From Methanosarcina acetivorans C2A (GTDB lineage Archaea > Halobacteriota > Methanosarcinia > Methanosarcinales > Methanosarcinaceae), in the NCBI RefSeq assembly GCF_000007345.1, contig NC_003552.1, forward strand, positions 186,001 to 250,000: a stretch of 64,000 bases of DNA. The letters run 5' to 3'. A program made the position numbers and the translations under genes. The first letter of the stretch is position 1, and each line of letters begins with the position of its first letter. Positions 12,136 through 15,402 of this stretch are shown piece by piece. Below the pieces are notes generated by a model. The model made no database searches, was not told where the DNA came from, and saw only the letters and a list, made by a program, of their open reading frames with translations.

Positions 12136-14520
12136 ATGCAGGCTGAAAAGGATGGGATTGATACTGCAAGTTCTATTGTTCGGGTGAATGAACCATCTTC
12201 TCACGATAAAAAACATGACTCTGGAATGGAAATGCCCAAAAACTCTCATGAGTTGCACGAAGAAAACGGGCACAAAAATTCTGAAAATATGCTGCATGAG
12301 AGCCATTATGGAGGGCAAACAGAGCATGAGGGAGAGAAATCTCAGGCCCTTGAGCAGCACTCCAAGATAAACCCCCAGGGTCATGACCAGCACCCTGAGA
12401 TGGCACATCAGGAGCATAATCAGCACGAAGGAATGGAATCTCAGGATCGTGACCAGCACACCGAGATGAAGCATCAGGTTCATGACCAGCATGAAGGAAT
12501 GCAACATGAGGGGCATGAAATGGGGGGCAAAGGTCATGGCAAAAGTCATGGCGATCACCATGCTCATATGCTTGCAGATTTCAGAAAAAGATTCATTGTT
12601 TCTTTTATACTGACCTTTCCGGTTTTGCTGCTCTCTCCCATGATTCAGGGTTTTTTTGGCTTTGAGTTTCGAGTCCCCGGTGCGGATATTCTTACCTTTT
12701 TGCTTTCCACTGTCGTTTATTTCTACGGCGGCTATCCGTTTCTCAAAGGGCTCAAAGACGAGCTGGCAGAGAGAGCTCCGGGAATGATGACCCTTATAGC
12801 CGTTGCTATCAGCGTGGCTTATTTTTACAGCTCTGCCGTGGTCTTCGGGCTTCCCGGGGGAGTCTTCTTCTGGGAACTTGTGACCCTTATCGATGTAATG
12901 CTGCTCGGGCACTGGCTGGAGATGCGCTCGGTAATGGGGGCTTCAAGAGCCCTTGAAGAGCTGGTAAAAATCATGCCCTCGATTGCCCACCTGAAGAAAA
13001 ACGGCGAAACTGTTGACGTGGGAGTTGACCGATTAAAAATAGGGGACAGGGTTCTGGTCAAACCCGGGGAAAAGATTCCTGTTGACGGAACTGTTTTAGA
13101 AGGGACGAGCAGCGTTAACGAATCAATGCTTACAGGAGAGTCAAAGCCTGTCACGAAAAATCCGGGAACTGAGGTCATAGGTGGTTCGATTAACGGAGAG
13201 GCGGCTTTTGTCGTGGAGGTCAAAAAAACAGGCAAGGACACCTATCTCAACCAGGTGGTTGAACTCGTCAGAACAGCTCAGGAAAGCAAATCAAAGACTC
13301 AGGACCTGGCAAATAGGGCTGCAATGTACCTCACGATTATAGCCCTGACAGTGGGCGCGCTCACATTTCTCCTCTGGATTTTCTTCGGGCATGAAGTTGT
13401 CTTTGCCCTGGAGAGGGCAGTTACCGTAATGGTTATCACCTGCCCTCATGCCCTCGGGCTTGCAATCCCTCTCGTGGTTGCAGTTTCCACGTCCCTGGCG
13501 GCAAAGTCCGGGCTTCTCATCAGGGATCGGCAGGCATTTGAAAAAGCTCGGAGCCTTGAGGCTGTGATCTTTGATAAAACCGGAACTCTCACCGAAGGCA
13601 GGTTTGGAGTAACCGATGTAATTTCGCTTTCAGGGGAGGTCGACAAAATGAACGACAACGAGATTCTCAGCCTTGCAGCCTCCCTTGAAGCAAGTTCGGA
13701 ACACCCGATTGCAAGGGGAATCCTTGAGAGTGCCAGAGAAGAAGGGATAGAGCCTTTACCGGTCGAAAAGTTCAGTTCCATTCCCGGAAAAGGAATCGAG
13801 GGCATAATCGAAGGCAAGAAATTCCTTGTAGTAAGCCCGGGCTACCTTGAAGAAAAAGGAATTAGCCTGAATGGCGGGAAAATCGAATCCGAAAAAATAG
13901 AAGAAATTAAAGAGCAGGGAAAAACCGTTGTATTTTTGCTTGAAGGAGATACGGTACTTGGAGCCCTTGCCCTTGCCGACATTGTCCGGAAAGAGTCAAG
14001 GGAAGCAATTTCAAAGCTCAAAGGAATGGGCATAAAATGCCTGATGCTTACCGGAGATAACCGCTATGTTGCTGCCTGGGTGTCTAAGGAACTGGAGCTT
14101 GACGACTACTTTGCGGAAGTTCTCCCTCACGAAAAGGCCGCAAAGGTTAAGGAAGTCCAGAAGCAGTACATTACCGGCATGGTCGGAGATGGGGTCAATG
14201 ACGCTCCCGCCCTTGCCCAGGCTGATGTGGGAATTGCCATCGGGGCGGGTACGGATGTTGCAATCGAAACCGCTGATATCGTACTGGTGAAAAACGATCC
14301 GGGAGATGTGCTGTACATTATTGAGCTTTCCAGAAAGACTTACTCCAAGATGTACCAGAACCTGCTCTGGGCAACCGGGTATAACGTGTTTGCAATTCCA
14401 CTTGCAGCGGGGGTACTCTACGGATACGGCATCTTACTGAGCCCTGCCATAGGGGCAGTTCTCATGAGCCTGAGTACCGTGATCGTAGCTATAAATGCAA
14501 GAGCTTTAAAGATGGGGTGA
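12136..14520 (+). CDS. copB: CopB-type P1B-3 copper-exporting ATPase
   Basis: A 794-residue P-type ATPase. Residues 1-140 are a His/Met/Glu-rich metal-binding tail with repeated QHxEM/HDQHEGM units and no CxxC domain. The sixth-type membrane helix carries CPH (Cys436-His438), the mark of the CopB class (P1B-3: Cu or Ag). Other motifs: LTGESKP in the actuator, DKTGTLTEG with phosphorylated Asp480, SEHPIA in the nucleotide domain, and [11 protein letters not shown]. It exports copper from the cytoplasm. CGGAGGG lies about 12 bases upstream of the ATG. A 35-codon gene follows after four bases. Symbol used by class, not by proven orthology. Confidence 0.93.
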
Positions 14521-14524
14521 TTTA

Positions 14525-14632
14525 ATGTTCGGAATAATTCGTGGTTTGATGAAGATACTGGCTCTGGCAGCTCTAGTTTCTGCAGGAGTCAAATTTATCT
14601 CAAAGCATGTACGGAGAAAACGAAGAAAATAA
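14525..14632 (+). CDS. 35-residue basic membrane peptide coupled to CopB
   Basis: ATG 14525 opens MFGIIRGLMKILALAALVSA and ends GVKFISKHVRRKRRK with TAA at 14630-14632. A hydrophobic helix is followed by a strongly basic tail. GGGGTGA, overlapping the end of the ATPase gene, lies at ideal distance, and the gene starts four bases after the ATPase stop, so translation coupling is likely. Small membrane proteins often modulate P-type ATPases; that role here is inference. No family recognised. Confidence 0.6.
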   Translation: MFGIIRGLMKILALAALVSAGVKFISKHVRRKRRK

Positions 14633-14651: not shown

Positions 14652-14716
14652 CTGATAATCTTGGCTGATAATTTTGGCTGATAATTTTGGCTGATTATTT
14701 TGGCTGATTATTTTAA
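14652..14716. repeat. 13-base tandem repeat
   Basis: Five units of CTGATAATTTTGG and close variants (starts 14652, 14665, 14678, 14691, 14704) fill the spacer between the small membrane peptide and the cytochrome c gene. AT-rich, possibly part of the cytochrome promoter. Confidence 0.75.
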
Positions 14717-14754
14717 CAGATAAACTCAGGTATGATTTAAAGGGGGGTTAAAGC

Positions 14755-15402
14755 ATCGCAGACAGGGAGAGCAAAAGCAATCCATTCCTGATTATCCTGC
14801 TGGTTCTGATAGTCGCAGGGATAGTTTTCCTTATTTTTACTTTCGGGACCATGTGGGGACTTTCTCGTACAGGGGACGGCTTCTATGGCCGGCCTGATAT
14901 TTATTCGGAAAACAGGACTTCGTATCCTGGCACTGGAATATATCCGGGAGGTGGAATGTATCCGGGAGGTGGAATGTATCCGGGAAGAGGTATGTATCCG
15001 GGAGGGTATCCTTCCTATAACATAAGTGATTTTGAGTCAAACGGGGAGTTAATCTACTATACCGGGTTTAATGAAAGCGGTGAGCGTATTGAGACAGAGT
15101 ACGGTCCTCATTGGCTGTACGTTCATGGAGGGAGCTGTGTTGACTGCCATCGGACGGACGGGAGAGGAGGATATCCGGTGATGATGGGTTACGCAATCCC
15201 TCCGGATATCAGATATGAGACCCTTACTTCTGAAGAGCACGAAGAAGAGGAAGGACATCCTCCATATACGGATGAGACCATCAAAAGGGCGATCCGGGAG
15301 GGCATTGATTCTGCAGGCGAGCCTCTTGACCTTACCATGCCCAGATGGAATATGACCGATAAGGATGTGAATGACGTCGTTGAATACCTGAAAACACTTT
15401 GA
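14755..15402 (+). CDS. Membrane-anchored mono-heme cytochrome c, apparent AUC start
   Basis: Read from ATC at 14755 the protein has 215 residues: a hydrophilic ADRESKSNP start, a membrane anchor (FLIILLVLIVAGIVFLIFTF), a Tyr/Pro/Gly repeat linker (about 60-85, YPGGGM units encoded by 18-base DNA repeats), and a C-terminal cytochrome c domain with CVDCH (Cys128, Cys131, His132) and a probable distal Met in LDLTMPRWNM. The frame is closed by TAA immediately before AGC-ATC, and contains no ATG, GTG or TTG before 14851, which would cut off the anchor. GGGGGG sits 7 bases before ATC. It is likely an extracytoplasmic electron carrier, next to the copper pump. Confidence 0.8.
   Translation: MADRESKSNPFLIILLVLIVAGIVFLIFTFGTMWGLSRTGDGFYGRPDIYSENRTSYPGTGIYPGGGMYPGGGMYPGRGMYPGGYPSYNISDFESNGELIYYTGFNESGERIETEYGPHWLYVHGGSCVDCHRTDGRGGYPVMMGYAIPPDIRYETLTSEEHEEEEGHPPYTDETIKRAIREGIDSAGEPLDLTMPRWNMTDKDVNDVVEYLKTL

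Follow-up and report, generated by a model that had tools for sequence, protein, structure and literature searches.

Near-cognate start codons are known in bacteria, and infC of E. coli, the gene for IF3, starts at AUU and is autoregulated by its own product, an initiation factor. For archaea, a review gives the start codons as AUG, GUG and UUG and nowhere mentions AUU, CUG, near-cognate or non-AUG, its account of Shine-Dalgarno-led initiation being shared by the case presented here (PMC7531240). In the open-access literature, which our search covered, we came across no description of archaeal genes with a conserved AUC, AUU, AUA or CUG start.

Here we describe a gene in a 64,000-nucleotide stretch of the Methanosarcina acetivorans C2A genome (the window; contig NC_003552.1, positions 186,001 to 250,000), whose ATC at 14755 is, judging from its sequence and that of its relatives, very probably the genuine start of a membrane-anchored monohaem cytochrome c (Table 1). 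As in infC, a conserved near-cognate AUH codon stands behind a Shine-Dalgarno sequence. The differences from infC are that the product, a cytochrome, is no initiation factor and cannot regulate its own start directly, that initiation relies on the archaeal factors aIF1/aIF1A/aIF2, and that the codon used is AUC or AUA. The aIF1A gene of this genome, which has a CUG start, is the closer functional parallel to infC.

Table 1. Features of the proposed cytochrome c gene and its start site (positions in the window).
Feature	Position	Strand	Remarks
Shine-Dalgarno GGGGGG	14742..14747	+	AGGGGG pairs with 16S 3' end UCCUCC, one G-U
In-frame TAA just before the proposed start	14749..14751	+	shuts the frame; AGC codon between TAA and ATC
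ATC, proposed start codon	14755..14757	+	orthologous codon ATC x7 (plus degraded copy), ATA x1, ATG x1
Monohaem c-type cytochrome CDS, from the proposed start	14755..15402	+	215 aa plus stop; PF00034 match; genus orthologues
Hydrophobic membrane anchor / uncleaved signal	14788..14844	+	LIILLVLIVAGIVFLIFTF; Kyte-Doolittle 3.33, maximum over 19 residues
First in-frame ATG	14851..14853	+	a start here gives a 183-aa protein without the anchor
CVDCH haem c attachment motif (CxxCH)	15136..15150	+	Cys, Cys and His invariant in 14 homologues

The start was first proposed in a sequence-only reading, whose coordinates for the ATC, the G run, the TAA and the downstream ATG were all correct and whose statement that no in-frame ATG, GTG or TTG lies between the TAA and 14851 holds. 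The TAA that it placed directly upstream of the ATC is present, with one codon intervening. The hexamer GGGGGG, claimed to occur nowhere else, is found at six plus-strand positions in the window, of which a single one is suitably placed for this frame. A 7-nt spacer (TTAAAGC) separates it from the ATC, and the Shine-Dalgarno scores 10 at register 7, the median score of 928 genes being 7 and their modal register 7. Upstream of the anchor, the three frames of M. acetivorans are shut at -6, -17 and -22. None of them has an ATG, GTG or TTG leading into the anchor, and frame 0 is also free of canonical starts upstream of the TAA. No Rfam element was matched in the leader, and RNA structure around the start showed nothing unusual (z -0.31).

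Directly upstream of the Shine-Dalgarno lies a 13-bp tandem repeat (CTGATAATTTTGG, 4.8 copies, 14652-14714) that differs in number and sequence among species, one copy of the locus (L020) having a long ATTATTCTATCTG array. The interval from a P-type ATPase (12136-14520) to the cytochrome contains a small frame of about 35 aa (MFGIIRGLMKILALAALVSAGVKFISKHVRRKRRK, 14525-14632), and DNA resembling this frame was found upstream in several relatives.

The product scores 32.6 bits against PF00034 (class I cytochrome c), for a gathering cut-off of 21.3, and an NCBIfam search returned nothing above cut-off. Its identity to orthologues inside the genus is 72-84%, purifying selection acts on the haem domain, and M195 of a C-terminal MPRW, invariant in homologues, is a candidate axial ligand. 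The good membrane anchor claimed for 14755-14850 is borne out, with Kyte-Doolittle values of 2.98-3.52 in the intact orthologues. Past codon 33 the 19-residue value never rises above -0.25, in agreement with the earlier claim that a start at ATG 14851 would leave the protein with no export signal. An 18-bp repeat in four copies (14934-15005) encodes a GMYPGG-type linker joining the anchor to the haem domain, and its copy number varies among species.

By position and published description, the gene is probably MA0167. Passages of the MA0167 papers describe a monohaem c-type cytochrome predicted to have a single membrane helix (PMC6703419), a transcript about 6-fold up in AQDS-respiring cells and a deletion that leaves AQDS reduction unaffected (PMC6703419, PMC8546582), and a protein never verified in cells (PMC8546582); the start codon is not discussed in those passages. 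To judge from this helix prediction, MA0167 has probably been annotated somewhere with a start upstream of ATG 14851.

Among 31 Methanosarcina genomes, eight (M. acetivorans included) carry an intact copy of the gene and one (G025) a degraded copy; a second scan with an alignment query added isolate UBA9310 (L025), a close sister of Methanosarcina. The sequence-only reading had proposed to check whether relatives have ATG at this codon, and mostly they do not: ATC stands there in seven of the nine intact copies (M. acetivorans, L002, L003, L005, L006, L007 and L008), ATA in UBA9310 and ATG in L004. The start codons across species are thus ATC, ATA and ATG only, that is, AUG or one mismatch away from it. 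The degraded cytochrome of G025 (L018, L020) has an internal deletion and retains the Shine-Dalgarno and the ATC, the latter at the orthologous codon in L020. In every copy examined, from Methanosarcina as from UBA9310, 7 nt separate the end of the Shine-Dalgarno (GGGGG; AGGGG in L008 and L025) from the start codon. The spacer sequence and the codon preceding the start change across copies, and the start codon itself is always AUN. This conservation of codon and spacing exceeds chance and supports the AUC reading, and the independent genomes exclude a sequencing error at the ATC, whose correction would have restored an ATG.

Invariance of the third base was considered as proof of an AUC start and rejected as too weak, since 4 of 11 isoleucine columns elsewhere in the gene are invariant as well; the case for AUC therefore rests on the closed frames, the Shine-Dalgarno spacing and the interchange with ATG and ATA. 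Counting against an AUC start, L006 has an in-frame ATG 30 nt upstream, without a Shine-Dalgarno, and L004, L008 and L025 have an in-frame TTG or GTG inside the anchor. In the gene tree, built with the start residue left out and weakly supported at several branches, the ATG species groups with two ATC species (support 92/90). Because it is nested with ATC species, the near-cognate start is likely to be ancestral in the genus, the ATG of L004 being a reversion.

The first canonical start, and hence the choice of a gene finder restricted to ATG, GTG and TTG, is ATG 14851, which would yield a soluble 183-aa cytochrome and leave the upstream open frame untranslated. We consider this highly improbable: the 32 codons before that ATG encode an anchor conserved in nine species, no other export signal is found, the conserved Shine-Dalgarno belongs to the ATC, and homologues from other genera carry this anchor too, immediately after an ATG, GTG or TTG that mostly has a Shine-Dalgarno. 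Initiation at a different near-cognate codon might use a CTG in the anchor, where such codons occur, or the codon before the ATC (AGC, AGT, ATT, AAT or AAG), with an ATT adjoining the ATC in L005. None of these has a Shine-Dalgarno at a conserved distance, and the position before the ATC is a variable one, which makes such a start very unlikely. An upstream start connected to the anchor by frameshifting, with the G run as a possible slippery site, or by stop readthrough can hardly be credited: the three M. acetivorans frames are closed without a canonical start, which excludes frameshifting from one in this species, the two other frames of L025 meet stops at +1 and +5, frame 0 upstream of the TAA offers no canonical start for readthrough, and TAA or TGA is missing at that site in L002, L006, L008 and L025.

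The AUC start is also favoured by independent near-cognate starts elsewhere in the genome, at whose positions relatives can have canonical start codons. The Shine-Dalgarno, the gene anatomy, the closed frames, the conservation and the interchange with AUG can be read directly from the DNA, and how the codon is decoded is what we infer from them. Mechanistically, the strong Shine-Dalgarno would position AUC in the P site of the 30S subunit, so that Met-tRNAi could pair with the A and U and the third-position mismatch would be tolerated; the anchor would then direct export of the haem domain, to which haem is attached outside the cell. The yield from AUC would be low or stringency-dependent. AUC would have become fixed in the Methanosarcina lineage, with one drift to AUA and one reversion to AUG, and the cytochrome would belong to a group of genes of this lineage that start at AUC, AUU, AUA or CUG behind good Shine-Dalgarnos.

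The earlier view that natural AUC or AUU starts are very rare needs revising, as seven or more other genes within 1.2 Mb appear to start at AUA, AUU or CUG. In this part of the M. acetivorans genome a trained hexamer model found 928 coding frames, and we counted sites in coding-like sequence upstream of the first canonical start, at register 6-9 and with a Shine-Dalgarno score of at least 8. AUH and CUG codons occupy 14 of 44 such sites against 4.8 expected (binomial 1.6e-4, treating sites as independent and including, for one gene, a CUG adjoining what proved an AUA start), and 8 of 16 against 1.7 expected at scores of at least 9.5. Seven further candidates were followed into the genus, and all seven align with the start codons of relatives. 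Together with the cytochrome they make 8 of 928 genes, or about 1%, a rough lower bound for the near-cognate share.

The genes concerned are named from their sequences and not by database assignment. A PhoU-like protein has ATT in 23 of 28 and ATC in the other 5; an aspartate-dehydrogenase-like protein has ATA in 11, ATG in 16, ATT in 2 and ACG in 1; an FmdE-like protein has CTG (10) or TTG (19), and a zinc-ribbon-like protein CTG (25), ATG (3) or TTG (1). The start of a diadenylate-cyclase-like protein is ATA in three species and ATG wherever else it can be read; two of the three ATA species carry, in addition, an in-frame GTG three codons before it. An ABC ATPase has ATA in M. acetivorans only and ATG in 26, and this ATA could alternatively reflect a recent loss of function.

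The aIF1A gene (contig position 1072160, minus strand, in M. acetivorans) has CTG in 27 of 27 orthologues of the genus. Across the order, 67 loci including paralogues (L118, L119-L147, L208-L232, L293-L304) give CTG in 62 and TTG in five, all of one genus, and 50 of the 67 lack any canonical codon in frame ahead of the core fold. In two further families of the class CTG is found in 12 loci, one of which has ATG directly before it (L305-L319 for the class-wide CUG).

A role in discriminating against non-canonical starts is attributed to aIF1 of Sulfolobus in a passage of PMC8211752 that quotes the finding, so the near-cognate gene set could respond to the stringency of initiation. With aIF1A itself starting at CUG, a directly testable feedback loop is conceivable, as speculation. 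A broader proposal is that in Methanosarcinia AUA, AUU, AUC and CUG are regular minor starts (about one gene in 100) and that expression, including that of the cytochrome, is tied to start-codon stringency set in part by aIF1A, whose own gene begins at CUG almost throughout the class, an archaeal counterpart of the infC/IF3 loop; we put this forward tentatively, as a possibility that may well prove wrong. A long-conserved near-cognate set makes archaeal start-codon selection testable on natural genes. It also matters for annotation, since gene finders restricted to ATG, GTG and TTG would truncate these genes. The cytochrome, from a model methanogen used to study extracellular electron transfer, would lose its anchor, and the initiation factor aIF1A its N-terminus together with part of its fold.

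On the M. acetivorans contig, further near-cognate starts, aligned with start codons of relatives, lie at 1028464 (+, ATT), 1142634 (+, ATA), 447398 (+, CTG), 611696 (+, CTG), 771519 (-, ATA) and 1130084 (-, ATA). Candidate near-cognate starts with strong Shine-Dalgarnos are found at 730311 (+), 726726 (-), 396260 (-), 666552 (+) and 1125253 (+, ACG). The four aIF1A genes of M. acetivorans all have CUG preceded by a Shine-Dalgarno.
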